Part shown: positions 22,319 through 56,564 of the stretch, piece by piece
Position numbering within the stretch: position 1 is the first letter of the stretch
How the letters are laid out: the number at the start of each line of letters is the position of its first letter
DNA from: Tomocerus qinae
Taxonomy: Eukaryota > Arthropoda > Collembola > Entomobryomorpha > Tomoceridae
Direction: 5' to 3'
DNA: 64,000 nucleotides
Assembly: GCA_020055645.1 (NCBI GenBank)
Contig: CM034546.1
Span: forward strand, 5,642,001-5,706,000
The notes under the pieces: model-generated
The model's database searches: none
Seen by the model: only the letters and a program-made list of their open reading frames with translations
What the model was told of the DNA's origin: nothing
Program-made: the position numbers and the translations under genes

Positions 22319-23570
22319 TCATTGGGCCAAATAGTCTTCCATGGATGGTGGGTTTAAATTAAAATATTCACTAACTTGTGACCCATAAATGCAAGTATGA
22401 CAATTAGTTAAAATTACCCCCACGGAATAATACTTGCCAACAGGCTGTAACCCGATTTTTAAATTTTTCTTGAAGTCCAAAAAGCAAAAACATTAGTCAC
22501 TTTGCCAAATCCCCATTCAACAGATTCCCTAACTTGACTCATTCGCTTGTTGCATAACAACTTTGAGGGAGTCAAATTTTGGTAGCGTTTGAAAGGTACC
22601 ATCAAGCATTTTCTGAGTGGGTAGGCTGGATCTCCATACAAGTAATACGGTTCCCCTTCAGGAGTTTTGAATATATTTTCTAGCTCATTTATAAGTCCAC
22701 TCTGTTGAAGCAAATAAGCATCATGCCTTCGTCCTGAAACCGGTCCATATAGACATCCAATTATGCCGTCAGGAAGCATCACGGATTGAAACTTAATAGC
22801 ATGCGTTCTTTTATGGCCGTTGTAGAACTAAAAATATGAAAATTACATTTTACTAAACATGTTTACTAAATGGAATTTGACGTTGTAAGAGGATTTTATA
22901 ATTGTCTAGCTTTCGTACTTCTTTCTGATTTTTTCCAGGACGACATATTGGTCGTACTGTCCCGTCCAAAAATCCGATGCATTTGGGATAAGGTGATCCT
23001 TTATTCAAAATGGCGTCTGCGAATGAGGATAATACTTCTTGAGATAAATATGACTGGTGTAAATTTTTGAGGAGCTGAATGTGATGATCATAAACAAATG
23101 AGACCATAGTATTAAATATTCTTGATATTTCACACTGGGTTCTAGGAAATATTGAGCATAAGTCAGCAAGCCTAGTAATAAATACAATATTACAACATAT
23201 AATAATCCAAATTAATGACATGTCACTTAATGATTTTATAAAACTCGACAAATAATACTGTTATTTACCTGTTAGGATATTCCAGTCTTTTTAACAGTAT
23301 GCATAAACCTTCCAAGCCAGATACTTTGTGCGCAGAAAATGTAATTACAGTTTTAGGTATTTTTAATCCTCGTCGTAACCTTAGAATGTCGTTTTTAAAA
23401 AACCTAAAATGAATTTTACAAAAATCGTCCGACAAAGATTCAAAATTGAATACTTTAGGTCTGGGAAGTATATAATATGGTTCTTTAGGAAGGTACAATA
23501 ACAACAACAAGGTTTCATCATCAATATTCTCGTTTTCTAAGAAAGGTAACAGTTTTTCAAAATAAGACAT
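22319..23570 (-). pseudogene. Harbinger transposase (DDE_Tnp_4), one frame break near the C-terminus
   Basis: Cuts and rejoins the element ends. Three exons with in-phase GT-AG junctions: 23570-23269, 23171-22919, 22827-22319. Exon 2 holds GFLDGTVRPICRP with the first catalytic Asp; exon 3 starts FYNGHKRTHAIKFQ and holds YLYGDPAYPLRK (second Asp) and VRESVEWGFGKV (catalytic Glu). Length about 354 residues is normal for the family. The frame breaks at a T5 run (22479-22483 on the plus strand), and the family C-terminus (LKIGLQPVGKYY) continues in the next frame to a stop at 22319-22321. All three catalytic acids precede the break. Confidence 0.85.
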
Positions 23571-23755: not shown

Positions 23756-24969
23756 ATTATTTAGTACTGCATGAATTTGCTTGTGGTATAGGTGTTTAGG
23801 ATTTTAAGGCTTGCTTAGCTAGAACGCAACAATTTCAAAAGATAATATTTAGCTGCCAAAAGACATAATATAAGGATCAGCTACTTAATAATTAAGTATT
23901 TCTTTTTAAGAGCAATCTTCACAAGGAATTATCATATTATTCAGTTACATAGGCATAAACTACAGCACTAGAAAGAACTTTATTATACTGCATTACATGT
24001 TATCCCTAAAGGTTTCCCTACCCACAGTTGAAAACCGAGCAATCCTTGATGATCTGATTACCCGCGATCAGCATTAAAACGTATGGTAAAATAATATACA
24101 GGATTTCCATGACATTGCAATGTAACAAGCCCTATTTTTGAAAAAATGGTAACTTTTACCTAATGAAAAATATTTACAGGTTTATTAAAAAATATTTTTG
24201 GTACATTTTCACAAATAACAACTACTGGTTTCCCACATTGTAGTGTTCAGCATACGTTATGTACTAGACTTTTTGAGGTTTGTACTTGTATAACAAAACG
24301 ACGGAATCAATAATCGATTTAATATGGCATGTATTAAAAGGTAAACCATTTCAACTTTAAAATGTTCTTCTATTGCATAGTATAACTCACAAGCTTTGAC
24401 ATAAATACTTAAGCCACATCAATTTAGTATCATATCCACTCTTACAATAAGAGGATACCAGGTATACTATATACTAGGAATTAGCCCAAATTAATCAAAT
24501 CATTAATATTATAGCTTTGTATTTTAACAATATAGTCGAACTAAATTTACCTGAAGTATGCAAATTACGGTTTGATAATCTGTTTGGTATTTTCCACCTT
24601 CCCTTTCCCTAGTTGTACATATTCAAAGCGCTAAATATTTGCCGTTCGGAAATATTTTTGGAGTTTGGTTTTATAAATTATTTAAATGTCCCTAATAACC
24701 TAGCAGTATATTTCAGTACAGTACAAATTTGTCTCATATTTTAGCTCTGGAAATAAAGCTCTAAAGTAACACAACTAACAAATTTTATAGCTAGCAAAGA
24801 ATATTGACATACTATAACTGGAGTAGTATAATATTTGGATCATCATTATTAGCAGACATCAATATTGAATTTGGAGTATCATCCGTATAAATATTGAATA
24901 TATTATATTATATTGAACTAAAATTTGATATTTAGTGACAACTGCATTACTGCAGAAAACAAATTTGGA
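23756..24969. other. Intergenic, upstream of ionotropic receptor 1
   Basis: AT-rich, no supported exon. A TATAAATATT word at about 24887 lies 80 bp before the chosen receptor start and could serve as a core promoter. Confidence 0.3.
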
Positions 24970-27323
24970 ATGAAAGGCATTTTAGTTTCCATAATTTTCA
25001 TCGCTAAATTGACTTTTGGGTGGAAATTGTCAGAAATTGTGAATATTGATAAAGACTGTTACATCAACCTGATTTTCAATCAAAATACGAATAAACAGGC
25101 AGGAGAGTTTCAGAACAAAGAATTGCCAAATATTGAAATTCCCTACGCGTTTACAAACCTCAAATTAAATAGGAAAGAAGAGTTTTGCAATTTAAATCAG
25201 ACAATCGGATTTGAAGATTCGTATGAAAATATGTATTATTGGACAATGGATTGTATCCGTTCACTACGAAAGCCTAATTCCCTATCATCTCCACCTATAC
25301 AACGGATTATTGATAATTGTGTAGTGCATTTCACAGTTAACTTTAACCCAAATGTTTTGATAGATCTAATGTTGATTACCCATATCACTGCAGTTATTCC
25401 CCCTAAAAAAGGAGTTTATGGGCAATATAAGACAAATTGGTTCAATTACGTTGAACGTTCTTCAGTGTACCTTCTAGTGGATACAGAAACTATGCAGTTA
25501 GCAAAGGCAAGTTCCCTGGCAAAGAAAGTACACAGAACATTCCTGTCAAAGCCTTTCTTTATGGTATCTCTGACGGGTGGTGATGAGATCTATTTTATTT
25601 GTCCGCAAGTAGACGAAAAAAATGAACATACTTATTCAGCTGAAGTTTTTTGTTCTCTAAACGATTGTTTTGATCAACCACCACGGGCGATGGCAATAAA
25701 ACTGTTCATTGAGAAGAGCTCCTTTCTAGATTCGCTTGTCCTAATGTCCTATGTGAAACATAGAGAAGACGAGCAACCATACTGCGGACCGCCCATTAGG
25801 AACCAAAATAATCACTTTGAAAAAGATTTTTCCCTTCATGATATCATTTCTCTTCAAGTTATTTCGACAGTGGCCGAGAATTTTCAAAATTCTACAGTAT
25901 TTCTAAGGAATTATAAACTATTAACGTGTTTAAACATAAAAGGATTTAATTCCTGGGAAGACCATTTGGAAATTAGTATTCAAACAGAATTTCTTGATTT
26001 GGACTACATCCATCCCAATTTGGTCCTCATTCAAACAATGGAAGATTCGTTTAATTTTATCTCATGTGTCATTTTGGAAGATGAAAGTCTCTCATTTATT
26101 GGATACATCCGACCCTTCCAATCTGAAGCTTGGTATGGGTTGATCGTTTCAATTCTGGCTGTAATTGTATTCGTCGAAGGTGCAATATATGTCAAAAAAG
26201 ACGACCGGATTCCAATTACTTTGCTCTGTTATGCATATCTGTTAGAAGTCAGTTACTCGTTATCGGAAAAGGCTAACAAAACAACTTGGATCGAATTAAT
26301 TGTCGGTCCGCTGTTGCTCATGTTCATTGTCCTGACAAATGGGTACAAGGGAATTGTCACGACAGACTTGGTCGAACCACGTCCAGTGGATAGAATCGAA
26401 TCCTTCGAACATTTGGCAAATCTAAACAATTTTACTGCCCTTGGCGAATTTATAGATAGTAGCGAATTCAATCCTTTCTACGCTGCTTGGTATATTTCAG
26501 GTCCGGTTTTTGGAGACTATTGTAGCCATATAAAGAATACTTCGGATTGGAAAGTAGTCAATCTATGCGAATATTTTCTTGAGAAAATTAACAACCACAG
26601 TGAAATCACGTTAGCGTTCCAATCGGCATTTCAAAACAATCGTGATTATAGAAAAGAGCCCAATTTTTTAAGAAGAAATTTAGAATTCTTAAATTTATTG
26701 ACAACTTCCGGGAATCTTACAATATTATTGGCTTTCCAAAACATTTGGAGTTGTTGGATAAGATTTGGAAACTTGTGCAACTTCCTCCTGATTATCCTTC
26801 TACAAGTCCTCAAAAATGGATTTCCGAGTGCAATAGTTCTGCACTAATTCTCCGAAGTTCCCGACTACATCGACTCCTGAACGACTCTCACTGGAATCCA
26901 CAGAATGGGGGAGTTGAACCAACGAAAACTTTGTATTATGGAACTGAGGAGAATGCATTTCTATCGATACCTATTTATACATATATCTCACCTGATAGAC
27001 TTCCAATGATGATTCCAATTCTAAAGCGGAGTCTGTTTGCACTGATGCATTCTGGAATATTTAATCAATGGTTAGAAAATTTCAAGAGTCACAATTTTAC
27101 TAAATGCAAAACCTGCTGGACACGAGAACTTCCTCGACCAGTCACGTTTTTGAATTCGAATATATTCACGATATTTCTAATCAGTTTTTGTATTGCGTTG
27201 ATGTATTTTGTGACATTCTTGTGGGAAAATCGAAGGCGTATTAAGTCATTTACCATTAAAGTTTGGAATATGGTTAGATATGTCTTTTGCCTCACATTTC
27301 AAAGACTTTTCTTGAAAAATTGA
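24970..27323 (+). CDS. Divergent ionotropic receptor (IR), copy 1, one frame break
   Basis: Single-exon, about 785 residues. The ATG at 24970 is chosen over the longer frame because it gives a signal peptide (MKGILVSIIFIAK) aligned with the paralogue at 34292. A Cys-bearing extracellular N-terminal region is followed by a ligand-binding S1 half (NFISCVILEDESLSFIGYIRP), first transmembrane segment (AWYGLIVSILAVIVF), a short pore, the TM segment GPLLLMFIVLTNGYKG ending in TDLVEPRP (equivalent of the SYTANLAAFLT region), S2 with PQKWISEC, and a last TM segment (NIFTIFLISFCIALMYF) with a short basic tail. This is the layout of arthropod chemosensory IRs, cation channels related to glutamate receptors. 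The frame shifts at a T6 run (26664-26669); downstream paralogue homology resumes in the other frame. Ligand unknown. Confidence 0.75.
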
Positions 27324-31955: not shown

Positions 31956-34292
31956 TTACGGAACATTATTTTTGACAAAACAATTCTTAAAGGACAAAGT
32001 ACTATATTTAAGGTATATTAATAGTATTTTTCTGCACTCAAATATGAGAGCCGAAAGAAAAACGGCCACCAAAGTGAGACACAAATAAAATATGGTGGCT
32101 ATTTTGGAATTGGTAAAAGTCGGCGGACGAGGCGTTTGTTTTTTGAAACAATGTTTGCAATTTTTAAAAGTATTGATATTATATTCTAACCACTTATGAT
32201 ATATGCCTGAATGGTCCAAGCACAGCAAAGCCTTCCTCAAATGACTAGAAAATTGTTGACTCCCACCGGCAAACAATTCTAAGACGATTCAATATGACAA
32301 GGGACTGAATATATTTTCTTTGGATCCTTGATAAATCGTTCGTCTTGGGATTATATTCTTCCAGTGAGAGGCATTTAAGAAATTGTGTATATTTTCCTCT
32401 TCGTCTATGTGAACAGAATCCTTGCATTGTGAAATCCACTTCTGAGGAAATTTAAATGGAAATCCAGGATAAAAATTGTGACTGTCAATTATGGCTTTAT
32501 AAATAGGATCTTTAAGAAACGGAATTTTCTTCAAATAGAGGAACGATGTAAATCTGAAATCAAAGTAGAGACAATCTGATGTTTTTTTGCACTTTTGGAA
32601 AGCGTTTTGAATCATTTGTTTGGATTTATTATTAATTGTATAAGAATCTGGGGCAAACGTCTCACAAGGCTCATTTCTCTGTTCAATTTCTGTACTATTT
32701 TTGTCGTAATAACTAATATACTTAATATAACATTCGTATCTGTACACAATAGTATTTACATTGTCTGCAGGTAGCCCAAAAAGTTTTTCTGAGTTTCACT
32801 CAGATTTTGGAAAACTGTATGAAATAATGTTACTGTAGTTTGCCAATTCTTCTATTGACTCCAATCTTTTGACAGGGCGTGGTTCGGTCAAATCTGAAGT
32901 AATTATTCCCTTGTAACAATTCGTTAGTACGATAAACATTAATAGTAGGGGGCCTAGTGTCAATTTTAACCAAAGCTGTTTCTGTGGTGCTTTTGGAATT
33001 GAGTAACTAATTTCCAAAAAGTAAGCGTAACATATCAACAGAAAAGGAAATGTGTCGATACCTTTTATTAAACTGATGACGTGGACGTGGACAAATAAAA
33101 TGACCAAATAAAAAGTACCTATAATTGCAATCCACGCATAAATTTTATAAGGTCTTATGTATCCATAAAATGACAATTTTTCGTCCTCTAAGACGACACA
33201 AGAAATAAAATCATAACCTTTAAAAGTTGTTGGAATGTAAATGTCAAATAATTTTTGCCTCCATGTGGGGAAAGTGATTTCAAAGTCAACGTACAAGCTT
33301 CTTATGCTTCTTCTGCAATAGAAAATTCCATTTTCAATTGTAAAATTGGGGAAATTATGAAGTATGAGTTGAGTGACAGCGACCTAGAATCCTAAATTCT
33401 TTCTCCTGAAGTAACTACCAAAAAATTTCTCTCCATCAGGCAGTTTTCCACAATGATATTGCGGATATTTCTTGTAGTAGTATTTAACCTCCATTTGATT
33501 TTTCACTGCCCTGTCAGATAATGTTTCCCAAGTTTTGATAATCAGTTCCCTTTGGTCAATATATTGATTATTGGTAAACTGCAATGGAATCAGATCGTAT
33601 GTTAGTTTTTCATTTTTTGTTCCCCCATGTTTTAATAGACAGCGGCAACAAACAAAATAAATGGATTTATTAGTAGCATCTTCTGAATGGAAATATGTAT
33701 GTTTTTTTAACATATTTTGTCGAAACTTGGAATTTCGAAATTGGTCAAAATATTTTCCTAGATTTTCTTTGTTAGAAAAGATTGATTTCTTCAATAACAC
33801 GTGATTTCTAGTAAATTCAATAAGCTCTGGTTTTGCTCCTTGGGGAAAGTTATACATGTAATTTTCAAATTTCACGTCGAAATTTCGGTTGGGGTCGTAG
33901 TCCAATGTAAAATATGCCAAGCAGTTGTATCTAGCCACATTACTAAGGACAGGAAGTTTCAAATTTTTCATATTTTTCTTTCGGAAACATTTGTACCTTT
34001 TGTTATCATAATAACGCCATGGATTCTCGTTTTCCATTTTTTCCTCTGTGCAGTTTGGTATATTTTTAAAATATTGTGTCACTTTTGACAACATTGTTAT
34101 CACGAATGGAATAATAACTTTATTTAAATCTTGAAATAACTCATCTTGAATCGTTTCGCCTCTTGGTTCATGAAATATATAGTTTATGTAGCACTCGCTT
34201 TCCATTTCTGATAGTTCAATTAATTTCCCACTCTGGCTCAATCTTGCAGCTAATGTTATAGCCAAACAAATTTGCAATATGTAATGTTTCAT
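31956..34292 (-). pseudogene. Divergent ionotropic receptor, copy 2, three in-frame stops
   Basis: Paralogue of the receptor at 24970. One reading frame runs the full 2.34 kb with no indel, interrupted by TAG at 33384-33386, TGA at 32796-32798 and TGA at 32289-32291; homology to copy 1 continues directly across each stop. Start MKHYILQICLAITLAA is a signal peptide; later segments are FISCVVLEDEKLSFYGYIRP (S1), a first TM around WIAIIGTFYLVILF, GPLLLMFIVLTNCYKG with TSDLTEPRP, PQKWISQC (S2), and a last TM around IFYLCLTLVAVFLSALIF. Tail-to-tail with copy 1, 4.6 kb apart. Most simply a recent pseudogene; stop readthrough, as known for one Drosophila sechellia IR, is the alternative. Confidence 0.8.
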
Positions 34293-35858
34293 ATTTTCTT
34301 ATTTCTTAATTGAACTTAAAAATTATATTATTAAATTCGTCACGCCTAAGATTTTATAAAACTATTGTTGACTAAACTACAATTGTAATAGTTAGGTATT
34401 AGGTATACCTTATACAGTAACAAATTAAGGTTAAAACGAACTTGTACCACTATTAGCTTCGAAAAATAAAGTTTAGCCGTAAAATTTTACGGACATTGAA
34501 CTAAAAATGTGAAAAAATTCAGGCTTGATTCAGCAGCGCAGAATTAGATTAATAATCTAATAGGATTATAATAAGGAGAGTTATTATCATGTTAGTAATT
34601 AGTTGAACAACAACAACGAGTCACATAAAATATTCACTTGGATACTTGCTACGTATAAGTTATATTTACGTACTTAAAGTAGTTGACTGCATTTAAATCC
34701 AACATGTTGTGCTTCACGCAAAGCTAATCGAAAATAGAACAATAAATGTGTAAACAAAGCGCGATCTTTAATTATGTATCAGTAGGTGGATATGGTCGTG
34801 CCATTCAATCCTTATAGCTGAACATTAAGTATCATTAATTACTTAGGATATGAAGTTTGACACGATAAGCTGTATGGACTTCTGATCGAGCAATAATATT
34901 ATTAAGCTAAACGTTATAAATAGCTGTTTATCGCTTCACCAAAAATTATTTTATTCAGTTAGTCCACAATTTTAGATAGGCCAACAACGTTGTTTCATCA
35001 TATGCGATTATATGGAACATAATATTATATGGGATATAAACCAAATCAGACTTATTTATTATGGCGTATGACCTTAATTGGCTCCTGGAGGTCAAATGAT
35101 AGATTATTTTTACCCTGAGTTTTACCAGTATTAATATAGTAATAATCCTACCTTATATCAACTTTTTATGTGTACTGTTGTTTATTGTTTTAAAGTTCAT
35201 CCACAGAATTTGTATATATTGCTAAACTCATGATGCGTAGTGAATTTGTATTCATAATGTGTATATAAAATTTAGAACTAATTTTTAGCTTATTTTGCAC
35301 TTTTTAAACAGATTTAAGATAACAAACCTGCCGAACCAGAAACTCACCGCACACCGCACTAGTTGCACTATACTGAGAAATTCACCTGTAAATTCTTGGC
35401 AGTTAAAACATAACTTGAGGGAGATCAAGTGGTCCACGGAGTTTTGTAATATTCGCCAGTGTTAGGTATTCATGAATCGATAGAAAGTTTACAATTACAC
35501 AGATATGCCTAGCGTCTACTGTTTGCGCCTAGTGGATATAGTACCTATATATACATAGTCATACTAGTCAATGATACTTATATGAAGAAAATGAATCTCT
35601 GAAGAAAATTAACAATGAACAAGATCGACAGAGTTCTCTCCTTCACGGAGTCTGTGTATATATGCCCTAATGTGTGCAAACTGTTTCGACAAATAAATAT
35701 TCATAAATTATATTTATGAATCAAATTATATATCCATTGACGAATATCACATTGACGACCTTGTTTCAAAAATGTCAAATAAATTCAAACTCGGAGGTTA
35801 ACTACTAAAATTTTTAGGCCTAACTTAGTCTAACAATCTTTGGAGGGAAACTTTAAAA
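34293..35858. other. Intergenic, no gene recognised
   Basis: Lies between the divergently pointing IR copy 2 and CCCC-motif gene B, so it should hold both promoters. No clear motif beyond AT-rich sequence. Confidence 0.35.
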
Positions 35859-42210: not shown

Positions 42211-44618
42211 GATAGATAAGATAACTTTATTGTGCTTCTTGAATTAACATTCATTACACAGTATATTGCCAAAATTATTTTGATTACAAATACTAGTCTA
42301 GTTAGATCCTATTAAAGAATAATGTTACATTACATAATTACTATACCTTTATACCGAATTACAGAGTTTTTCTATTTCATCAATTATTATAGAATAAGAT
42401 ATTTTTTATTATCATTATCGCGGTGGAATGGCAACCTTTACTCATTTCTGACCCAAGCACGTAGCTTCAGTGCTTGAGCAAAGAAAATATAGATATTATA
42501 TAATACCGCATTATCATCTGACTCTAGAAGAGTATAGAAGTCTTTTACTCTAGTTAAATGTTTTACTAGCGCGTTATCTCTGAATGGTTTGTACGGGCGA
42601 CAATTATATACAAAGTGGTCTAAGCTTTCCAGCTCTTCATTTTCGTTGTAACATGTGCTACACAGTTCGTTATTTTTTAATTCGTATTTTATACCGTTTA
42701 AAAATATTCTGTGGGTATACTTATTCATAAGCCTTATTTGACTTATAACTCGGATGATTTCTATAGGCATTCTTAGTAACAAATACTTTTGTGGCAAGAC
42801 AAAACTTATTTTTAAATGTTTGTAAATAACACATGTATTTGAGTTTGGTTTTCTGGAGTAGTCAGTCTGTCTCTGTATATCCATCATTCTAATTATCATA
42901 TCGCAGTAATTTTCTTTAATGACATCTACAGACTGCGACTCCCATACGAAACCAAATCCAATAGTCTCTATTATTTTCCTCAACTGAGTCGCCCAGTTAT
43001 ATGTGTTACCTTTATCACCCTTGTCTAGGTTGTAAAGAGTTTCGAAAATGAGTCTTGGTTATCTTTCTGTGCCCATACCAAGAATTTTCACCCAAAGTCT
43101 GATAGCAGCCTTAAAAACATTGGTGAATATTTTCACTCTACCTGTCTCGAGGCGGATTACATAGTCTGGCGTATTTAGGGGTAATCTTAACAGCTTTTTC
43201 AAGAATTGGGTCTGGACCGATTCTATCATGCTATCGTGTGATATCGCCCAGACGCCACTACTATATAACAGCGTAGACTGACAGATAGAGTCAAAAATTT
43301 TCATTCTTGAGTACCAGCTGTCCATCTTAGATTTCGTTAGTATAGACCATACAATAGCCAATTTTGCAGTGGCTCTCTTTCGAAAATCAATAGCAGTATT
43401 TCGGAATAGACCTGAGGTTGAAAACAGAACCACCAAATATGTGAAAGATTTTACAATTTCAAGTTCCTGACCATTGTAAAAGTATTTATTAGTAGTAAGA
43501 ATCTTACCACTTTTATTAAAAGTCATAATTTTTGTTTTGGCAATATTTACGGTTAACCTTTTTGAGTCACAATATTTCTTTAGTAAATTTAATTTTAACT
43601 GCAATGATTTTGCGGAAGGGGCCATCAAAATTAAATCGTCGGCGTACATCATAAGATGGACGCCTTTCCTGCCTCCCATTTCAACCTTAGACAAGACCGA
43701 TTGCTCAAAAATATCCTCAATGTCGTGGACATACAGACAAAATAGTAACGGCGAACATATCTCGCCTTGCATAAGGCCCTGTGTAACCAAAATGGGGTTA
43801 GTATGCCCGTCATAAGCTCTAACCTTCATCGAGGCTTTACAGTATAGTGCTTGGAAAATTTTTATAATTTTGGAGCTTAATTTTAATTTCTCAAGAGTTT
43901 TCCAAAGCAAATTAAAGTTTACTGTATCGAAGCAGCGCTCGAAATCAACACACGCTACATACACATTTTTATTTTGATATCTCAGGTTATATTGAATGAT
44001 ACCGTTCAAGGCAAAGATATGGTCATCGCATCCTCTCCTCTGCCTAAATCCTGCTTGAGCTTCAGGGATTATTTTATTCTCGTTTGACCAAAATGTTATC
44101 CTCGCTAATAAAATAAAGGAAAACCATTTAAGTAAAGTGTTTAGTAGAGAGATTCCCCTATAATTCCTTGGATTATTTGGGTCTCCCTTTTTGTGGATTA
44201 AGGCTACTTCAATTTCACTCCATTTCTTAGGTACCGTTTCCTTACACATAATTTTGTTGAAAAGTGCAAGAGCAGCTGACTCCAATTTGGGTGTTAAAGT
44301 TTTAAGGAATTCATTTTTAATTCCATCAACCCCAGGGCTTTTGCCATTTTTTAGTCTTCGTGCTGACAGGCCGAGTTCAACATTAGTAATTGTGTCATCC
44401 AGTTCTTTCACTTTACACTCTATTGGTTTATATATATTATTTTCAGAAGGAGGCATTACTTCCTCATAGAACTTACTCCAACCCAATTTATTTATGATAT
44501 TACTCTGATAGTTCATAGGACTGAATTTTTCTGCACACTTCCAAAAATCGCTATTGTTTTTTAGATTCGATAATTTACTTTTGGTGATTTTAAAGTGTGC
44601 ATCCTTTTTCTGTTTGTT
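42211..44618 (-). mobile_element. 5'-truncated non-LTR retrotransposon (LINE)
   Basis: Flanked by a perfect 14-bp direct repeat, ctgtatcatgacta, at 42197-42210 and 44619-44632, the target duplication left by target-primed reverse transcription. The 3' end (lower coordinates, minus strand) has aataaag and a short ttatcttatctatc tail. The 5' end is cut inside the reverse-transcriptase frame, so the endonuclease and first ORF are missing. This is a dead-on-arrival copy. Confidence 0.9.
42438..44618 (-). pseudogene. LINE reverse transcriptase, truncated, with one internal stop
   Basis: One frame from the truncation point to the TAA at 42438, broken only by TAA at 43059-43061. RT blocks in order: SPGVDGIKNEFL, EVALIHKKGDPNNPRNYRG, AQAGFRQRRGCDDHIFAL, VDFERCFDTVN (first catalytic Asp), GLMQGEICSPLLF, MMYADDLILMA (catalytic Asp pair), then a thumb region. 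After the stop the C-terminal domain continues with a zinc knuckle C-x2-C-x11-H-x4-C. The order RT then zinc knuckle fits I/Jockey/R1-like clades; the exact clade is not decided. Confidence 0.85.
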
Positions 44619-44632
44619 CTGTATCATGACTA

Positions 44633-46714: not shown

Positions 46715-49700
46715 TTACTTACGTACAATTCCAAACTTCTCAAAAACATCAGTTCGATACGCATACTGCAAGCACGCGTAAAAAATATCGTGAGGATGAG
46801 GAATCCTTTCGTTGATATCCGGTATTAGTTCCCTACACTTGTCACTAATTTTGTTTGTGTTAATTCCCTTCTCTAAAAATTCTCGGAATTTCGGATGGTT
46901 CTTGGAAAGTTCTGTGTGTGACAGATCTCTATTGTAACCATCATTAAAAAATGTTAAAAAGCTGCTGCCCTCAATTTCTTTTTGAAGCATTCCTGAATAT
47001 TCTTCAACGCTTACCAGATTCAAGTGAAAACCAAGTCTTTCAGCTACCATAATATAATCTTTGGTATACATAGGAACTGGTTGAACAATATTATAAACAG
47101 CAGATTTGACTTTATCGTTGAAAATTAATTCTAATGTAAGCTTACTGGCAACATCAACAGGAATTCCGAACCAACAACCTTCAACATTCGGAATTGATCC
47201 AAGTCGAAGGCAGAACAGAAGTTGATTTACCACCGAATTTTTGTTTGTCATATAAAGCCCCGTCTCGCTGTGCCCCAAAATACTCGAATATCTAATTACA
47301 GTGCAAGGAATTCCTCGGTCGTTTGCTTGTCTTAATAACTTTTCACAAACAAATTTGGACAATGAATAGCCCATTGTAATGCAGTCAGCGTTATTTTCGT
47401 CATCCGGAAAATCTTCGTAAATAAATCCATCATTTGTAAGACGATTAATGGATGAAAATGAAGATGAAAATACAACTCTCTTTGTTATGATATTGGCGGC
47501 AAATCTAAGAATATTCACGGTTCCTATTACATTGACTGACCGAATGTCATTTTTATTACTCTTATTGACTTGATATTTTTCTACGTGATTTGCTTTGGCT
47601 GCAAGATGAATAACTATGTTAATTTCTGTCGAAAAATAAATGTAATCTTCTAGAGGAAGTCCTAAATTATCGATTGTAATATCACCGATGATGACAGTAA
47701 TACTATCTAAGTTAATATTATCCAATATGTCAAATTTTTTCAAGTTGGCTATTAATTTCTTCCGACCTTGTTCTACCGACTTTCCTCTAACCAAACAAAA
47801 AATTTTTAATCCGACAATTTGGGAAAAATTTTGTAACAAATATGCCCCTAGGTGACCTGTTGAACCTGTTAACAATATAGAAGTTATTTTAGTTTGTTTT
47901 TTGTAATTTTTTGGAGCCTGAATTTCTTCCGATAGCTTAGCATCTTTCTTTACCAATTCATACATATCTTCAAGTGTGTACTCCTTTTCTTTCACTTCTT
48001 TTCCCCTCTCGGGAGAATCAGCATCGGTTTCTGCAGCCAGTATTTGCTCAAGTAAATATTTACTAAGGGAGTTTATGGTTGGATGATCCATCATTGCTGA
48101 GACATTCAAAGTTATTCTTTTCCCTACAATATTTTGAAGTTTATTTTTCATTTCGACAGCCATTAAAGAATCCAATCCCATTTCTTGGAAAGTTTGGAAT
48201 TCGTCAATGGCCTCTGATTCTGGCAGTTTCAATGTTTTCCGGATAATTGCAGTAATTTTAGTTTTAATGTAAGATTGTTTATCCTCCGCGAGTGGCCCAA
48301 TTTCAGCCCAAAACTTATCTGATTGAATGGAGGCAGCAGAATTCGTAGATTCTTTATTGTCGTATGCCTCTAATTCTGATAATATACTCCCCATGCCAAA
48401 GTGCTGTTTAAACTCACCCACATCAATTTGAACGACACCAACTTGTAGCAAGTCCGGCCGACTTATGATAAATTTTAAAGCCGCAATGCCCTGATTAGGG
48501 GTGAATGGTTTGACACCAAATAGACCTTCTTTTCCGTAGGCTGTGTTTGAAGCCGCACCAATCTCTGCCCATCCACCCCAATTTATTGTCTGAGCTGGAA
48601 GACCAATTGAATGTCGATAACTAGCAAATGAATCTAGAAAAGCATTTGCCCCTGCGTGATTGCTCTGTCCCATTGGGCCGACCAAACCGGCCATGGATGA
48701 AAATAGAACAAAATGTTCTAAATGCAAATATTTTGTTAATTCATGCAAATTGAGACATCCTGCGATTTTAGCATTAAAAACGTTTTGGTATTTCTCCCAC
48801 GTTTGATTCATGTATATCCCATCAGAAATGACACCAGCAGAATGGATCACGCCTCTTAGAGGAGGAAGACGAAGATCGAATGACATCATTTCGAATAGGG
48901 ATTTACATTGATCCCAATTTCCAACGTCGACTTGGAATGAAAATATTTTGCAACCCTTCGCTCTTAAGTTATTTAGCACATGTGATACATTTTCATTTGG
49001 TGCAGATCTTCCAACACAAACTAGATATTTGCAACCTGAGTCTGTCATCCATTTCGCAACTTCAAGACCAATTCCACCTAAGCCTCCAGTAACTAGATAT
49101 GTTGCATTAGAGCTGAACATTAAATCCTTTTTGATGACTTGGTTTCCAGTTTCAACAATATCTGGCATGGTTACTACAATCTTTCCAATGTGATTCGCTT
49201 TCAGAAAATAATTTAGAGCATCCCTAATATTTACAACGTCATATCTGGAATACGGCAACGCTTTGTAACCCTCTTTACTGTGGCATTTTATCTGCTGCAG
49301 TAAATCCCCTATTTCTGCATTTGGCAATTCCTCCAAGTCAACAATTGTATACTGCACATCAGGTCTCAACTCCCCAACTTCCTCTTGTTTCCAGATGTTT
49401 ACTTTTCCTATTTCAACAAAGCGTGCATTTTGTGCACAAGCCTTGAGAGTTGTTTCTTTGAATCCGTGTCCAGTCAGAGAATTGAGAACCATGTCTACAC
49501 CTCGTCCATTCGTGACTCTAGCTATTTCATCTCCAAACGTCAAATCTCGGGAATGGAAAACATGCTCAATCCCCAAAGTACGAAGATAATTTCTTTTCCG
49601 GTGAGATCCAGCAGTCGCAATTATTTTGGCTCCAATATTTTTTGCAATTTGTATAGCAATTAGTCCGACACCGCCAGAAGCAACGTGAATTAAAATAGTT

Positions 49701-52700
49701 TCACCTTTTTTCAAATCGGCAACAGTCACCATGCAATAGAAAGCAGTCAACAATACAGAAGGAAAAGTTGAAGCATCTGCAAAAGTTATATCTTTTGGTT
49801 TATGTAAAATTTTATCTTCATGTGTTATTGCATGACTGGCTACGCTACTGGAAAGAGCAACGCCATAAATTTCATCTCCTACTTTTACTTTAGTGACAGC
49901 TGAACCAATATTAGTAACGATGCCTGAAAAGTCTGATCCAATGGTCTCCTTCAACGTTTTGTACATAAGAGGCTTGAGAATAACAAAAATGTCTCTGAAA
50001 TTTAAAGCTACAGCCTTTACCATTACTTCAATATTTTTAGGACCAAGAGGCTTTCTTTCCATTGAAGAGAAACTGACATCGTTAATTTTCTTTGTTTTAG
50101 GTATGTCGACTGTATATCGTCCCTTTGGAAGTGTTAATGGAGCCAATGTCTTTGGTAGCGTTATTATTCTTGACACAAACTTTTTTTTATTTCTAAACGA
50201 AACCAAAAGTTCTTTCTGCTCAAAGACTTCGAAAAATATTTGTTGACTATCAACTGCATAATCAAACTCATCTGGATCTAAATCAATCATTTTCCATTGC
50301 AATTTTGAAACTTCGTTCACAATGCTTTTTGCCATTCCCCAAATGACGGCATTGAAAGGACACATTTCTTTCTGATTTTGTAAATAATATACACCTCTAG
50401 TAACAACTATGAACTGCAAATTGTGGTGCGCAACTTCCGATATGAATTTGAAAACATTTAATATAGATGGAAATACTAACTGACTAGTTTCATTGTCAGT
50501 ATTGGTAGCTAAATACATTATACCGTTAACTTGATATTTATCTAATAACTCCGATGTAATAATATTGATGGAATCGCTGTTGGTTTTGTCACATGAAAGT
50601 ATAAACTGATTACAGTTGTCTGATGTTATGTTTTGAATTAAAATTACTTCATCACAAATAGCTAATAATTCATTTCGAATATGGGTTGATAAATCAATAT
50701 CCTCACCAAAAAGTAGCCAAGCTGATTTCTTGTGATTGTTTGTATTCAACGTAGCTATAGAATTGTCCCATTGATTAACGCAACTGTCCTTCTCTACCGC
50801 TCGGGATATTAAAACCGTGGTAAATTCGTCTTTCGAAGAAACATTGACAGCTTCCGTAAATCCTGTGTCAACTAATATCTTACTCCAAACCTGTTGAGTC
50901 ACCATTGGATGACGAGAACGCAGATCATAATCTGTGAACTTCCAATATCCCTCCAAAATTCCAAAAATAAAATCAATTGGTCTACTAGGCTCTACAATCT
51001 CCTCCAAAACCAAAATTCCATTATTACGAATCAACTTACGGATATTGGTAATGGATCTTTTCAAATCTCCAGTTGCATGAATAACATTAGCAGCCACCAC
51101 AACATCATAATAGTGAGGACAAAATCCCTGCTTTGATGGATCTTTTTCAATATCTAGCACCTTATAGTCAATTCCACTAAATGCTGAAAACTGCTCTTTG
51201 GCTCCTTCGAAGAAATGAGGGGAAACGTCAGTGAATGTGTACCGAAATGGAATTTCTTCCTTTTTTAAAACCAATAAAATTTCTTTCGTTGTAGCTCCAC
51301 TTCCAGCTCCTATTTCAATTATCCTAACAATTGAATCTTCTTTTTTTGGACTTGATTTAAAGTCCTGTAAAGCTAATCCCAGATATTTCCCTACACGCAA
51401 ATTTGCAACAATACATTCATTACTCTTTGTGTATACATCTAATGGATTCAAATCCTCGGTTCCAAATAAAGCAGACACGGCCGTCTTTTTTCCGACAAAA
51501 ACATCCCACATTTGCTCTAAACATTTAAAGACAATTTCCAGAACTATAGTGCGCCCTACTGCTGCACCCTCAATATGAAAATAAGCGTCAATCTCTGAAA
51601 TTCTTTGTTCAATTTCTTCAAGAGATGGGAATTCTTTAACACATTTCCATCCATCCATAAATCCAGATTCGTCGTTGATTTCTAAACCGTAACCATCTTC
51701 ACATAATATTTCGAACAATCGCTTAACAAACAGACGATGTTCGGGATGAATTAAATAATTTTGGAGAAACTCCTCTATGCAGTACACAACGCCTACTTCA
51801 GGGGTAAATGCATTCTGTTTAAACAACTTTTGGATGCACAATTTAACAGTCTCTCTTCCCTTCTCTATACATTCCAACACAAACATGTGCATGTGCTGTT
51901 CCATACTAACAGTAAGTGGCTGTATAACATCTTGAGCGTTTACTATTTTTTTAACATCTATTCGTGCTTGAACAGGACCTACTCGCTGTCTCCATACTTC
52001 CTGGTACATGCCTGGTAACATGTTCTTGTGAGCATTGATAACATTTAGAAAAGAACTGACAGAGGTCTTCATCAACCGGATTCCCACCATTACGACAAGC
52101 AGAATGTTTTTGTCGTTATACAAAGCAACAGTTGCCTCAGATTTTGTTTCAGACCATTTTGCATGTGCAAACAGACTTTTCGTTTCTGAGTCATTTACAA
52201 GAAATACTTTATCAATAGCAACTGGTAAATAAAGGTCTGCGTTATCATTGCCGATACTCACACCAAACAATTGTATCATGGCATCTAAAATTATTGGATG
52301 ATAAACATAATCAGTTAAATTTCCTGCCTTTGTCGGAATGGGAAATAAAGCCATAGCTTCCTTCTCTCCTACCCAAACTGATTCTATGCTTTGAAAGGTC
52401 TCGCCAAAAAATATTCCAACCTCCGGCGCCATCTTATAAAATTCTTTTGAATCCTGCTGGGTTGGACATCGTGCTTTTACAGTAGTTAGATCTTCGCTTA
52501 CGTACTTAGGTTCCTCGTTATTTATTTCAGCAGCGTTGCTACAACTTGCTTCCAAAGATACACTTAAAGACTCTGATAGAGAAACGCATGCACTCGAATA
52601 TCGTTTCCAACCTTTTTCGTCATTGTATCCATTCAGTTTTCTAAACATGTAGACCTTAACATGAAACGTATCTGTCTGATTCTGCACTGGAGACGCAACT

Positions 52701-55700
52701 ACCTGAATTTTATATTTCTTCCCTTCCTCCAGTTCCAATGGAGACTCCACTACAAAATCTTTTACCACTAACAAACCAAAATCGTTTTCCTTGCTTTTTA
52801 GAAGAATATCTCTTCCTGTTGCCAATATTATTTCTAAAAATCCTGCACCCGGTAAAACAATGATATGTGCCACCTGGTGATCTTTTATATATTGCAGATC
52901 GTTTAAATTCCAAACGTGTTCATAAACATGATGAGGTACATCAGCAACTGAAACTTTCTTTCCAAGAAGGGGGTGGATTAGTTTTTCACTAACATCTCCA
53001 GATATATCTGGCCAATATTTTTGCCTTTGAAATGGATAAGTTGGCAACTGCAACTTTTTCCTGTGCCATGATTTATCTAAAGATTCCCAATTAACATTTA
53101 TCCCGTTAGTGTACAATGTCCCCATGCTACTCAAAATAGTTTCCCAGTCGTCCTTATTTCGTCTTAAAGAAGGAATCCACAGTTCGTTTGCAGAAGAATT
53201 TAAATTATTCACAGCTAATGCCAACAACACAGGATGCGCTCCAATTTCCACAAAAATGTTATACCCTAAATTTCCGAGTGTGGATATTCCCTTTTGGAAA
53301 TTAACTGAATTCCTTGCATGTCTAACCCAATAAGTTCCATCCTCCATCTCGTTGCTAGACAGATGCTTGCCTGTAGTTCCTGATACATAATGACATTTCG
53401 GAGATTGGTAAGACAATTTACTTGAAAACTCTCCAAATTCTTTTATAATTTTATCCATCTCTCGAGAGTGGAAAGCATGAGAAGCGGCAAGAATCTGAAT
53501 TTTGACTTCATTATTTTCACAAAATATTTTAAAAGCTTCAATTGAATTTTTATTTCCAGCTACAACAACTTCTTCCTCGGAATTGATAACAGCAATATCC
53601 ATCCACATATCTGAATGAACATTTGAAAATTCCGAAATTAATTTGGACACTTTGTCCTTGGTTAAACGAACAGCAATCATTCCACCTGGTGGAAGACTCT
53701 GAATTAATCTGCTCCGTTCAGCTAGCAAAGTTAACGCGTCTTCTAGGTTGATTATTTCAGCAGCTACCGCAGCGGCAAATTCACCAACACTGTGCCCTAG
53801 TACGACATCTGGAACAATCCCTACACTTTCCCACAATTTCAAAAGACCATATTCAACCGCAAAAATGGAAAGTTGGCTAAAAACTGTTTGATCTAATGAA
53901 TTATCAACTGAGTCGTTCCACAAAGCATCTTTTAATGAAATGCCAATATTATTTTTAATAAAATTGTCACACTCAGTAAACGCTAGATTAAAAACACAAT
54001 TTGATTGAAACAAAGACTTTGCCATTCCCGCATATTGCGAACCTTGGCCAGTGAACATAAATACCACTTTGGGTTTATCATTAAGTGTTGGTGGAATATG
54101 CAAATCACTCTCTAAAGCTTTCTTAAATTCAGCCACGGATTTTCCAGTAACTGCAAGACGGTGCTTGTGATGTGCCCGTCCTGTATTACAGGTGTCAGTG
54201 AGGTCAGTGATACTAACGGATGGGTATTTGTTCAAATATTTGGCATACAGATTGGTCAAATCCTTGAGAGCATTTTCTGATTTAGCGGAAAGTGTTAAAA
54301 TATTATAAGACTTTTCAGACTCCAGAGCATTTAGTTCTAGAGGTCTTGTTTCTTTGTCGCATGGCGGCTCCTCTACAATTACATGCACGTTGGTTCCACT
54401 TATTCCAAATGAACTCACACCCGCAATTCGTATTCTTTCAGAGTTTTTCAACCAGGGTGTAGGTTCAAGTGGAATAATAGCTGGAACAACGTCCAAATCA
54501 ATATTTGGATTTAATTTAGTGAAATTTCTATGTGGAGGAATCTCTTCATGCTCCATTGCCAATATAACCTTAATTAGTCCAGCTAACCCTGCTGCAGATT
54601 CAGTATGACCTATATTTGTCTTGACTGACCCAATCAAGAGTGGTTTTTCTCTTTCTCCAGTGTAGCCGGCGGAAATGGCGGCGAATTCAATGGGATCCCC
54701 AATGGGGGTTCCAGTTCCATGTGCCTCTACATAATCAACATCTCCTGGCTTGACTCGTGCATTATTCAAAGCATGATTTATAGCAATTTGCTGACAGAGT
54801 TTACTCGGAGTTCCGAAATTGGAAGATGTTCCTTCGTTACTCACTGCTGTCCCTCTAATAATGCCCATAATCCTGTCACCATTTTTAATTGCATCTGGCA
54901 ATCTTTTCAAAACAATTGCGGCCACTCCTTCTGCTCGGCCAAACCCATCCGCCGATTCATCGAAAGTTTTACAGTGACCATCTTTGGCCAGAATTGGAAT
55001 ATCCCCGAGTGGCAATTGCAGAATAATTATGTTAGCCCCCAACACCAAACCCAAATTGGTTTCCCTTTTCCTGAGACTGTCGCAAGCCAGGTGAAGAGCC
55101 ACCATCGAAGAGGAACAGCCGCTCTCTGTAGCCACATTCGGTCCATTGAGACCCAAGAAGTAAGAAACTCTCGCGGATGTTGCAGAAAAGGCGTTTCCAA
55201 GGATCACATGGTGGAAATCTTGTGCAGTTGAGTTTTCGGCAATCACTCTTTCGTAGTCGTGTGTCCACACTCCAGTAAATACTCCCGTGTTACTCCCTTT
55301 CAAAGAATGTGGATCGATTGCCGCATTTTCCAACGCTTCCCAAGCCACTTCAGCCACAAGCCTCTGCTGTGGATCCATAAAAGCCGCCTCTCGAGGACTG
55401 ATTCCGAAAAACTTGGCATCGAACTCGTCTATCGGGCACTTGAGGAAACCAGCTTTCGATTCTGTATATCTTGTATCGTTGAGTTGGCTTTCTAAAAGTC
55501 TTTCAACGGGTACGGATCGAATTGCATCGCCTCCATTTATTATCAATTCCCAAAACTCGTCAATGTTGTTGGCTCCAGGAAATCGGCAGCTGTGACCAAC
55601 AATGGCAATGGCGTCCTTGTAATGTGCACTTTTTTCTACATCAAAGTTATTTTTGCCGGATGTTATTGTACTCAGTTGTTTTTCTGCCTGTTGCCGCCAT

Positions 55701-55789
55701 GTCAACAACTTTGTGTATGGTCCCTGTAAGCGTTTTGAGTAAGTATCAATAGAAATAATTAGCCAATTTACAGTGTTCCACCATTTCAC
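46715..55789 (-). CDS. Reducing type I polyketide synthase with C-methyltransferase and terminal thioester reductase
   Basis: One uninterrupted 3024-codon frame. Domains (residues): ketosynthase about 60-480 with Cys225 (GCSSS), His357 (AHGTGT), His395 (NIGHTES); malonyl-type acyltransferase about 585-880 with Ser667 (GHSVGEF) and a HAFHS motif typical of malonyl-CoA; dehydratase about 950-1240 with His971 and Asp1169; C-methyltransferase about 1440-1680 (EIGAGSG); enoyl reductase about 1870-2190 (HVASGGVGLIA); ketoreductase about 2225-2400 (TGGLGGIG); carrier protein Ser2541 (GLDSLM); thioester reductase about 2630-3020 (TGSTGHLG, Tyr2808-x3-Lys2812). Predicted product: a methyl-branched reduced acyl chain released as aldehyde or alcohol. 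Start at 55789 is uncertain: an acceptor-like cgcttacag ends at 55724, so coding may begin from an upstream exon. The domain order and absence of introns suggest acquisition from a microbe. Confidence 0.92.
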   Translation of the reverse strand: MKWWNTVNWLIISIDTYSKRLQGPYTKLLTWRQQAEKQLSTITSGKNNFDVEKSAHYKDAIAIVGHSCRFPGANNIDEFWELIINGGDAIRSVPVERLLESQLNDTRYTESKAGFLKCPIDEFDAKFFGISPREAAFMDPQQRLVAEVAWEALENAAIDPHSLKGSNTGVFTGVWTHDYERVIAENSTAQDFHHVILGNAFSATSARVSYFLGLNGPNVATESGCSSSMVALHLACDSLRKRETNLGLVLGANIIILQLPLGDIPILAKDGHCKTFDESADGFGRAEGVAAIVLKRLPDAIKNGDRIMGIIRGTAVSNEGTSSNFGTPSKLCQQIAINHALNNARVKPGDVDYVEAHGTGTPIGDPIEFAAISAGYTGEREKPLLIGSVKTNIGHTESAAGLAGLIKVILAMEHEEIPPHRNFTKLNPNIDLDVVPAIIPLEPTPWLKNSERIRIAGVSSFGISGTNVHVIVEEPPCDKETRPLELNALESEKSYNILTLSAKSENALKDLTNLYAKYLNKYPSVSITDLTDTCNTGRAHHKHRLAVTGKSVAEFKKALESDLHIPPTLNDKPKVVFMFTGQGSQYAGMAKSLFQSNCVFNLAFTECDNFIKNNIGISLKDALWNDSVDNSLDQTVFSQLSIFAVEYGLLKLWESVGIVPDVVLGHSVGEFAAAVAAEIINLEDALTLLAERSRLIQSLPPGGMIAVRLTKDKVSKLISEFSNVHSDMWMDIAVINSEEEVVVAGNKNSIEAFKIFCENNEVKIQILAASHAFHSREMDKIIKEFGEFSSKLSYQSPKCHYVSGTTGKHLSSNEMEDGTYWVRHARNSVNFQKGISTLGNLGYNIFVEIGAHPVLLALAVNNLNSSANELWIPSLRRNKDDWETILSSMGTLYTNGINVNWESLDKSWHRKKLQLPTYPFQRQKYWPDISGDVSEKLIHPLLGKKVSVADVPHHVYEHVWNLNDLQYIKDHQVAHIIVLPGAGFLEIILATGRDILLKSKENDFGLLVVKDFVVESPLELEEGKKYKIQVVASPVQNQTDTFHVKVYMFRKLNGYNDEKGWKRYSSACVSLSESLSVSLEASCSNAAEINNEEPKYVSEDLTTVKARCPTQQDSKEFYKMAPEVGIFFGETFQSIESVWVGEKEAMALFPIPTKAGNLTDYVYHPIILDAMIQLFGVSIGNDNADLYLPVAIDKVFLVNDSETKSLFAHAKWSETKSEATVALYNDKNILLVVMVGIRLMKTSVSSFLNVINAHKNMLPGMYQEVWRQRVGPVQARIDVKKIVNAQDVIQPLTVSMEQHMHMFVLECIEKGRETVKLCIQKLFKQNAFTPEVGVVYCIEEFLQNYLIHPEHRLFVKRLFEILCEDGYGLEINDESGFMDGWKCVKEFPSLEEIEQRISEIDAYFHIEGAAVGRTIVLEIVFKCLEQMWDVFVGKKTAVSALFGTEDLNPLDVYTKSNECIVANLRVGKYLGLALQDFKSSPKKEDSIVRIIEIGAGSGATTKEILLVLKKEEIPFRYTFTDVSPHFFEGAKEQFSAFSGIDYKVLDIEKDPSKQGFCPHYYDVVVAANVIHATGDLKRSITNIRKLIRNNGILVLEEIVEPSRPIDFIFGILEGYWKFTDYDLRSRHPMVTQQVWSKILVDTGFTEAVNVSSKDEFTTVLISRAVEKDSCVNQWDNSIATLNTNNHKKSAWLLFGEDIDLSTHIRNELLAICDEVILIQNITSDNCNQFILSCDKTNSDSINIITSELLDKYQVNGIMYLATNTDNETSQLVFPSILNVFKFISEVAHHNLQFIVVTRGVYYLQNQKEMCPFNAVIWGMAKSIVNEVSKLQWKMIDLDPDEFDYAVDSQQIFFEVFEQKELLVSFRNKKKFVSRIITLPKTLAPLTLPKGRYTVDIPKTKKINDVSFSSMERKPLGPKNIEVMVKAVALNFRDIFVILKPLMYKTLKETIGSDFSGIVTNIGSAVTKVKVGDEIYGVALSSSVASHAITHEDKILHKPKDITFADASTFPSVLLTAFYCMVTVADLKKGETILIHVASGGVGLIAIQIAKNIGAKIIATAGSHRKRNYLRTLGIEHVFHSRDLTFGDEIARVTNGRGVDMVLNSLTGHGFKETTLKACAQNARFVEIGKVNIWKQEEVGELRPDVQYTIVDLEELPNAEIGDLLQQIKCHSKEGYKALPYSRYDVVNIRDALNYFLKANHIGKIVVTMPDIVETGNQVIKKDLMFSSNATYLVTGGLGGIGLEVAKWMTDSGCKYLVCVGRSAPNENVSHVLNNLRAKGCKIFSFQVDVGNWDQCKSLFEMMSFDLRLPPLRGVIHSAGVISDGIYMNQTWEKYQNVFNAKIAGCLNLHELTKYLHLEHFVLFSSMAGLVGPMGQSNHAGANAFLDSFASYRHSIGLPAQTINWGGWAEIGAASNTAYGKEGLFGVKPFTPNQGIAALKFIISRPDLLQVGVVQIDVGEFKQHFGMGSILSELEAYDNKESTNSAASIQSDKFWAEIGPLAEDKQSYIKTKITAIIRKTLKLPESEAIDEFQTFQEMGLDSLMAVEMKNKLQNIVGKRITLNVSAMMDHPTINSLSKYLLEQILAAETDADSPERGKEVKEKEYTLEDMYELVKKDAKLSEEIQAPKNYKKQTKITSILLTGSTGHLGAYLLQNFSQIVGLKIFCLVRGKSVEQGRKKLIANLKKFDILDNINLDSITVIIGDITIDNLGLPLEDYIYFSTEINIVIHLAAKANHVEKYQVNKSNKNDIRSVNVIGTVNILRFAANIITKRVVFSSSFSSINRLTNDGFIYEDFPDDENNADCITMGYSLSKFVCEKLLRQANDRGIPCTVIRYSSILGHSETGLYMTNKNSVVNQLLFCLRLGSIPNVEGCWFGIPVDVASKLTLELIFNDKVKSAVYNIVQPVPMYTKDYIMVAERLGFHLNLVSVEEYSGMLQKEIEGSSFLTFFNDGYNRDLSHTELSKNHPKFREFLEKGINTNKISDKCRELIPDINERIPHPHDIFYACLQYAYRTDVFEKFGIVRK

Positions 55790-56564
55790 CGGAAATATTA
55801 CAAATTTTTACATTTTTAGACCAAGATAGAGACGTAGTACACATCTTCGAATATTTTGTGAAACACCAAAAAATACTCACTGGTTTAAGTGAGTGTGAAG
55901 CCATAAAACTGGTTGCATATTTTTTGTACAATTTTGTTTAATGTCATATATGATATTCGCTACATGTGTGTGAAGCTGTATTTTGATTCAAATTGAGAGA
56001 GCTACAACCCAACTATTCTGAAATGATCGTACATTCAGCGGTTGTAACTAAAATTACTGATTCAGTCTACTATTTTACTGTCTTTCTCTGCAAAAATCCT
56101 ACCAGTAACTAATTTCTTTTTCATCAAATAGTTTGCAATATAACTTATTTGTAAGTTATTATTTTATAAAACACAATAATGCTTTATATTAGCAATCGTA
56201 TCCATGACATTACATAACACCTTCTCTTTACATGACAAAATAACATCCAAAAAAGCCCATCCCATGAAAACCAATTCACAATCCTGCATTATAATAAAAT
56301 ATATAATGAAATAAATTGTATAAGTCACGAAAATTATATACCTGAAGTATGTCATTTAACACTCCCTCGTTTTGAGACCAATTTCTTTCTAAACCAGACA
56401 GAATTTTAAGGTCCAATAATCGCCTAAAAGAAACATCATCCAAATTAGGGATATTTTATGAGGTAGACTTGTATGTGCAACGGTCGGTTATACCTAATGT
56501 ATAACCTTATACTTTTCTATGTTATAATTTACAATTTAATGCAGTAATATACCATTGCAAACTG
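55790..56564. other. 5' flank of the PKS, no gene recognised
   Basis: Should contain the promoter and any leader exon of the PKS. No exon that joins in phase to 55723 was found. Two minus-strand frames (55746-55931, 56164-56355) show no domain. Confidence 0.35.

Follow-up and report, generated by a model that had tools for sequence, protein, structure and literature searches.

Why should the genome of an animal, the springtail Tomocerus qinae, contain a 9-kb open reading frame for a bacterial-style polyketide synthase (PKS), where did it come from, and what might it make? The question was raised by a stretch of 64,000 nucleotides (hereafter, the window), in which a first-pass annotation had seen a single, intron-free PKS gene that is not a fatty acid synthase (FAS) and had inferred its horizontal acquisition.

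Domain architecture of the window PKS

The frame is uninterrupted over 3,024 codons (46715-55789, minus strand; stop-to-stop extent to 55807), a length far above chance expectation, and Pfam returned the domains in the order originally proposed, KS-AT-DH-MT-ER-KR-ACP-R (cf. Table 1). The motifs that we take to contain the catalytic residues were then read in the protein: the KS carries its Cys and both His, the AT GHSVG and HAFH, the DH its His and Asp, the MT the SAM and His/Glu motifs, the ER and KR their nucleotide motifs, and the ACP GLDSL with its Ser, while the R domain following the ACP was recognized as NAD_binding_4 with TGxxGxxG and YxxxK. An AT with GHSVG and HAFH is presumably, by rule, of the malonyl type. 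The original statement that the catalytic residues are in place could be upheld for KS, AT, ACP and R, but the position of the KR catalytic Tyr is occupied by His. The catalytic motifs are largely kept in the paralogs, a few of which differ at single motif positions. Among solved chains, MxaA was nearest to the R domain (130 bits), which scored 183 bits with TIGR01746, under the 213-bit cut-off of that model, and no thioesterase was present among the 25 Pfam families listed for the protein, R forming its C-terminal end.

Table 1. Coordinates of the PKS locus within the window
Feature	Position	Strand	Basis or remark
Main coding exon, KS-AT-DH-MT-ER-KR-ACP-R including stop codon	46715..55723	-	Predicted acceptor ..cttacag/GGACC, first base 55723
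Conserved upstream coding exon, 27 codons (RLLDLKILSGLERNWSQNEGVLNDILQ)	56342..56422	-	3' end CAG/GTATAT; 11/11 genome matches just 5' of a PKS
Predicted intron, 618 nt, GT...AG, phase 0	55724..56341	-	Predicted from sequence
KS	54158..55615	-	Pfam, residues 59-544
AT, GHSVG and HAFH	53096..54064	-	Pfam, residues 576-898; motifs
DH (PKS_DH_N and PS-DH)	52115..52975	-	Pfam, residues 939-1225
C-methyltransferase SAM fold, motifs EIGAGSG and NVIHAT..LEE	50990..51328	-	Pfam, residues about 1488-1600; motifs
ER	49172..50044	-	Pfam, residues 1916-2206
KR, His replacing catalytic Tyr (GQSNHAGAN)	48563..49105	-	Pfam, residues 2229-2409; motifs
ACP, EMGLDSL	48053..48259	-	Pfam, residues 2511-2579; motif
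Terminal thioester reductase (R)	47141..47872	-	Pfam, residues 2640-2883; nearest solved relative MxaA
Homogenised KS core	54754..55354	-	Full score in 13 copies including the window; at least 95% in 25 copies, C1:0.4-12.5 Mb

The KR substitution is a property of the whole family, since His was found in all 19 family KRs that were read (the window, 17 paralogs and L017). It also occurs in three of the 15 bacterial KRs examined, two in Gloeocapsa L078 and one in Nostoc L084, which made an inherited bacterial mark a candidate explanation. However, a KR tree of 11 loci of this genome and the window united the genome's own two PKS families (100/100) and kept them apart from the bacterial His-bearing KRs, so that inheritance from bacteria is unsupported. 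The KR may still work: DH and ER need a KR product and both stay under purifying selection, which argues for a functional enzyme despite the His.

Gene model

The description of the gene as intron-free had to be abandoned. No in-frame ATG was found 5' of the KS, and the GTG annotated as the start, at the 5' end of the frame, is not a credible initiation codon. Alignment of the upstream DNA of the paralogs revealed a shared splice acceptor, which predicts that the exon starts at 55723, and a conserved exon encoding 27 amino acids whose 3' end reads CAG/GTA. When 20 paralog upstream stretches, several of them short, were scanned with an exon pattern, this exon was recovered in three, whereas a genome-wide search with the 27-aa peptide gave 11 matches, all of them 0.3-3.1 kb 5' of a KS on the same strand (the two weakest with E 0.47 and 2.6). 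The exon bearing the start codon was not found in the upstream comparison of paralogs. Because a conserved coding exon lies upstream, the PKS gene is not intron-free: judged from the sequence, the 9 kb form a single giant exon, and one or more introns precede it at the 5' side. Acquisition in intron-free form, which had been considered, is ruled out by the position of the upstream exon matches.

A contaminating or chimeric contig is so improbable that we discount it. The PKS sits in a 140-Mb contig, its GC content resembles that of its surroundings, being slightly higher, and its flanks contain pieces of Ig, FN3 and tyrosine-kinase genes, which identify the host as an animal, together with a reverse transcriptase and a transposase; furthermore, the KS loci described below are spread over six contigs.

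An expanded family under purifying selection

The picture of a single acquired gene gave way to that of an expanded family with an upstream intron. A PF00109 profile search of the 334-Mb assembly, in which 123 of 163 candidates were scored, so that the counts are lower bounds, yielded at least 127 KS matches, corresponding to at least 123 loci after merging of split ones. One of these is the FAS of the genome and about nine form a second PKS family. An R match follows the KS on the same strand, at a distance of 5-13 kb, in at least 91 loci; for this pairing 107 R matches were used, and the 19 weakest of the 126 were set aside. Frames of 2,800 aa or longer occur in at least 49 loci, and the genome contains 132 matches to PF08242 (MT), some outside PKSs. 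Reading of 20 further loci showed a frame longer than 2,000 aa in 19 of them, 72-85% identical to the window protein; L010 breaks into shorter frames and L017 into two, while L009 is truncated by the boundary of the stretch taken. The window gene is thus one unbroken copy within a family of bacterial-style PKSs that numbers roughly a hundred.

The retention that had been deduced from an undamaged frame has now been measured. In all 19 comparisons of the window gene with paralogs, dN/dS was between 0.106 and 0.187, and it was 0.01-0.23 in each measurable domain, MT (0.08-0.20) and R included, which indicates that MT, ER, DH and R are all maintained.

Several other groups of synthase genes were noted during this survey. 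A PKS subgroup at C4:6.5-8.0 Mb has its KS mostly in a short frame (300-390 aa) and its MT and R in frames of their own, frequently some 2,650 aa long, with introns within the coding part, unlike the clade of the window gene. The second PKS family (L001-L008, L036) lies at C1:34.00-34.02 Mb, C1:35.26-35.29 Mb and on C100 in tandem arrangement, some copies being near-identical; its frames reach 3,769 aa, and the KR, visible in seven of eight loci, carries the normal Tyr there.

Relationship to bacterial synthases

The KS of the window PKS is 42-51% identical to the 14 bacterial cis-AT KSs compared and 45-47% identical to the second PKS family of the genome, vs 34-35% to human FAS and to the FAS of this genome, which is a separate, intron-split gene with best PDB matches labelled fatty acid synthase. 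Together with an R end in place of a thioesterase (TE), these values bear out the view that the protein is not a FAS. In a comparison of the KS with PDB chains, 7zma ranked top (its two KS copies scoring 286 and 263 bits, together 550), followed by CurL (400) and DEBS (370), and lower by Probable polyketide synthase 16 (286) and LovB (262); the best 60 of 150 matches included neither an animal FAS nor EcPKS1/2. The fungal LovB has the plan KS-AT-DH-MT-ER-KR-ACP, as does the window PKS, but its KS scores below that of the bacterial CurL. Animal FAS and AFPK are likewise type I, single-module proteins with an animal host, and their methyltransferase is inactive, whereas that of the window PKS is not degenerate, with conserved SAM and His/Glu motifs and the low dN/dS given above. 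They usually end in a TE, only few arthropod sequences having other ends, R included (both according to excerpts of PMC10764717), whereas the window PKS ends in R.

In the KS tree, the 41 sampled paralogs formed one clade (100/100) that lay among bacterial cis-AT KSs and away from FAS. The underlying set consisted of 96 rows of bacterial, FAS and own-genome sequences, with fungal, dictyostelid and other animal PKSs (AFPK included) left out and KS pieces below a coverage filter dropped, six intron-split loci (L038, L043, L045, L047, L050 and L065) among them. The first tree was built from 81 of these rows, 15 near-duplicates of both families being omitted, and the second from 63, with 18 more bacterial rows removed, mostly long or deep branches; the second PKS family was represented by L001-L005 and L036.

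The identity of the donor was approached by searching plasmids, where the best relatives of KS-AT were cyanobacterial (about 42-43%, best 726 bits) and, for the half from ER to R, the top bit score among the matches listed belonged to Planktothrix (442); a Lysinibacillus genome gave 684 bits. A cyanobacterial donor, although favoured by the plasmid matches, is nevertheless unsupported by the KS tree, in which the nearest bacterial rows were DEBS and Lysinibacillus (93/88, under the starred level). Cyanobacterial cis-AT modules (CurL and the plasmid PKSs of Gloeocapsa and Nostoc), which have the closest KS-AT by identity among plasmids, are parts of multi-gene assembly lines, unlike the single window chain. 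Among matches to the C-terminal half, the cyanobacterial ones end before R, and two actinomycete records span R at 27.6%. A scan of the genome contigs for bacterial relatives by peptide patterns returned seven loci, a number that is low because the patterns are narrow.

An old PKS lineage of eukaryotes or of animals, with no bacterial source, has to be weighed against these data as the origin of the family. AU tests did not reject a topology in which the PKSs of the genome were held together with FAS (p 0.075), nor one in which only the window family was (p 0.261); moreover, the family is diverse, possesses an upstream intron, and has a parallel in molluscs, which have their own PKSs with few introns, near the N-terminus (excerpts of PMC10764717). 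We nonetheless regard an ancient animal lineage as unlikely, for the KS is closer to bacterial KSs than to FAS by the identities given above, the PDB ranking puts bacterial modules ahead among the best 60 of 150 matches, and the Folsomia copy is treated as transferred in the same source. That the family was acquired by transfer from bacteria thus appears probable: KS identity, the position of the clade in the tree and the printed statements on Folsomia agree with the horizontal origin first proposed, but the AU test keeps a grouping with FAS and is not decisive. Separate acquisitions of the two PKS families were also considered; a single KS clade for both was not rejected (p 0.246 and 0.431), and their KRs grouped at 100/100, as mentioned above.

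Transferred PKSs of springtails are already in print, which deprives the original observation of novelty. Excerpts of PMC5490193 report 30 type I PKS clusters in Folsomia, with most genes called transferred, and those of PMC10764717 describe arthropods as otherwise having few or no PKSs. The type I PKSs of Folsomia candida (OXA62418.1) are therefore the nearest parallel, being likewise numerous, located in an arthropod genome and reported as transferred (excerpts of PMC5490193 and PMC10764717). The present genome differs in its at least 123 KS loci and in a measured homogenisation of the KS core, and the family size is new in degree. No Collembola genome paper combining a chromosome-level assembly with antiSMASH appeared among the literature matches listed.

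A homogenised core in the ketosynthase

Divergence at fourfold-degenerate sites among 20 genes was 0.42-0.56 in AT, DH, MT, ER, KR, ACP, R and the stretch before the ER, vs 0.17 in the KS, where it drops to 0.04-0.06 over residues 145-345 (the KS core); a second, smaller dip (0.23) is located at residues 2095-2144, in the ER. The core DNA of 19 genes (all except L022) is 99.0-100% identical, with a mean of 99.8%, whereas the mean for their AT is 80%. Compared with the other 18 genes sharing the core, the window gene is 76-87% identical in AT, 70-81% in MT and 72-91% in R, while L022 is an unconverted copy with a core identity of only 82%. A genome-wide DNA search with the core of about 600 bp, in which 40 of 86 candidates were scored, retrieved 13 copies, that of the window among them, with full score over 601 bases, a further 7 given as 100%, and 25 in total at 95% or above. 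These are exactly the 25 KS loci of the first 12.6 Mb of C1; the next match, L057 at C1:40.8 Mb, reaches 92% and shares part of the core.

From this pattern we infer ectopic gene conversion among the copies as the cause of the near-identity of the KS core. Fourfold-site GC of the KS is 0.38-0.46 in the clade of the window gene vs 0.26-0.34 in other groups, which is what biased conversion would be expected to produce, although the elevation extends over the entire KS and is not restricted to the core. The similarities of AT and R to the window gene are uncoupled across copies (AT 87% and R 74% in L018, AT 86% and R 91% in L015), which suggests that the copies of this clade are mosaic genes. Since the KSs appear to be converted, KS trees within the clade would carry no gene history.

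Three other causes of the identical core were examined. (i) General synonymous constraint was rejected, because four other PKS groups of the genome (8-12 genes each) have no dip in the KS, with a fourfold divergence of 0.32-0.72. (ii) An artefact of assembly or polishing is conceivable insofar as the core is known from one assembly; it is improbable, however, given that among the five PKS groups compared the core is confined to that of the window gene, L057 sharing part of it, that identity declines over about 100 codons on either side, and that the copies differ in the core by single bases, up to 5%. (iii) Selection on DNA or RNA, e.g. for an antisense gene or a small-RNA target, could account for 13 full-score copies and for an antisense frame of 197-210 codons present in 19 of 20 copies; yet in the unconverted L022 the longest such frame has 66 codons, as expected of a mere by-product of identity, the broken copy L010 still has a core identity of 99%, and the other PKS groups are free of constraint, all of which makes it very unlikely. 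In the window itself, this stop-free antisense frame runs over the core from 54629 to 55231 (plus strand, 200 codons), and its absence from L022 led us to reject an antisense gene.

Concerted evolution has been described for bacterial assembly-line PKSs (excerpts of PMC4256081), and no report of it in an animal PKS was evident from the titles and abstract openings of the papers listed on animals and ketosynthases. As far as the literature was searched, homogenisation limited to one domain is new in kind, and the family offers a remarkably clear natural example of concerted evolution that is confined to a domain among dispersed animal genes.

Predicted chemistry and product

Under the reading that we favour, with somewhat better than even confidence, a transferred family of iterative, C-methylating, reducing PKSs would make branched wax lipids and have its KS core maintained by conversion. 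An ancestor would have come from a bacterium with cis-AT PKSs, gained one or more 5' introns and expanded to about a hundred genes, producing a large arthropod group of single-module, iterative, highly reducing type I synthases. In such an enzyme, the AT would load malonyl units, the KS would condense them, the MT would add a methyl group from SAM to the alpha carbon, and KR, DH and ER would carry out the reduction at the beta carbon. Once this cycle had run several times, R would free the chain in aldehyde or alcohol form. The products that we predict are components of cuticle wax, namely fatty alcohols or aldehydes with 2,4,6-polymethyl branching. The KR lacking its usual Tyr speaks against full reduction, and the product would not be fully reduced if this domain were inactive. 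Ectopic conversion would meanwhile hold the KS core of about 600 bp near-identical in 25 copies as the other domains diverge.

The mycobacterial MAS and Pks2, which are among the best matches of the window protein, offer an analogy. They are iterative single-module reducing synthases whose products are 2,4,6-methyl-branched lipids with branch methyls derived from methylmalonyl-CoA, whereas the window PKS contains a methyltransferase domain of the SAM type and ends in R; with the Pks2-type equivalog of NCBIfam it scored 990 bits, under the cut-off of 2400. Lipids of the predicted type are known from springtails: excerpts of PMC11321324 report 2,4,6-trimethylhexadecyl 2,4,6-trimethylhexadecanoate in Anurida maritima, an ester type that was found in none of the authors' other species, and 1-methoxy-2,4,6,8,10,12-hexamethylnonacosane in Xenylla maritima, which the authors liken to phthioceranic acid. 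They assign these compounds to the fatty acid pathway (same excerpts), and the word "polyketide" is absent from the main text of the paper. The published lipids fit the predicted product, the polymethyl types being known here from two species, and by this analogy we tentatively propose a springtail-type polymethyl wax lipid as the product of the family.

Genes for wax ester synthesis were considered in the same context. The wax ester synthase domain PF06974 has 44 matches in the genome. Of their 32 clusters, 11 are no more than 300 kb away from a KS, vs 4.4 expected from circular shifts (p 0.003; 0.014 at 150 kb and 0.036 at 50 kb, the three p values being uncorrected); 120 of the 123 KS loci were used, two on C100 and the FAS being omitted. 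The enrichment is modest, and location on the same chromosome arms could account for it.

A defensive or antimicrobial polyketide, with many copies providing chemical variety against microbes or predators, is an alternative product, and an unlikely one in our estimation. Springtails do hold transferred antibiotic-type pathways (excerpts of PMC5490193 and PMC10531068), and NRPS condensation domains are encoded here too, the longest of their frames reaching 2,456 aa, but a single fully reducing module with an MT and reductive release would better suit a simple branched lipid. Returning to wax lipids, the most extended version of our proposal, possible but speculative, is that about a hundred acquired C-methylating, reductively releasing PKSs build polymethyl wax lipids convergent with the phthioceranic type of mycobacteria, while GC-biased conversion rewrites 25 KS cores on one arm and AT, MT and R diverge and recombine. 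No paper naming "springtail" was among the matches listed for literature joining C-methylating PKSs and methyl branches. As far as the literature was searched, the proposed link of gene to lipid, which we infer, would be new in kind; if true, the polymethyl lipids of springtails, a puzzling animal chemistry, would gain testable candidate genes.

Other features of the window and genome

The NRPS condensation domains occur in long frames (1,602-2,456 aa) at C1:108.4, 41.0, 41.2, 39.0 and 60.1 Mb, those at 39.0, 41.0 and 41.2 Mb additionally having a methyltransferase match. Within the window, Rfam and tRNA scans found nothing. A reverse transcriptase frame (RVT_1; 42441-44627, minus strand) lies next to the PKS, probably belonging to a LINE whose second frame follows it. 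Part of a transposase (DDE_Tnp_4) is present at 22462-22827 (minus strand). The stretch 18001-20000 has a strong GC skew (0.325) and AT skew (0.271) and contains a tandem repeat with repetitive frames reading CFPQCYIHSAFPNVIFTLLSPM. A pair of long genes that look similar to each other (24925-27323, plus strand, and 32289-34298, minus strand) gave no Pfam match above cut-off in the pieces scanned; we presume that they resemble arthropod chemoreceptor (ionotropic-receptor-like) genes. Finally, two likely exons of a wax-ester-synthase/DGAT-like gene were noted at 923-1249 and 2152-2697 (minus strand), with an HxxxDG-type stretch, FDHVIGDG, recognized by eye. Their match to WS_DGAT_C is weak, at 17.4 bits against a cut-off of 20.7.
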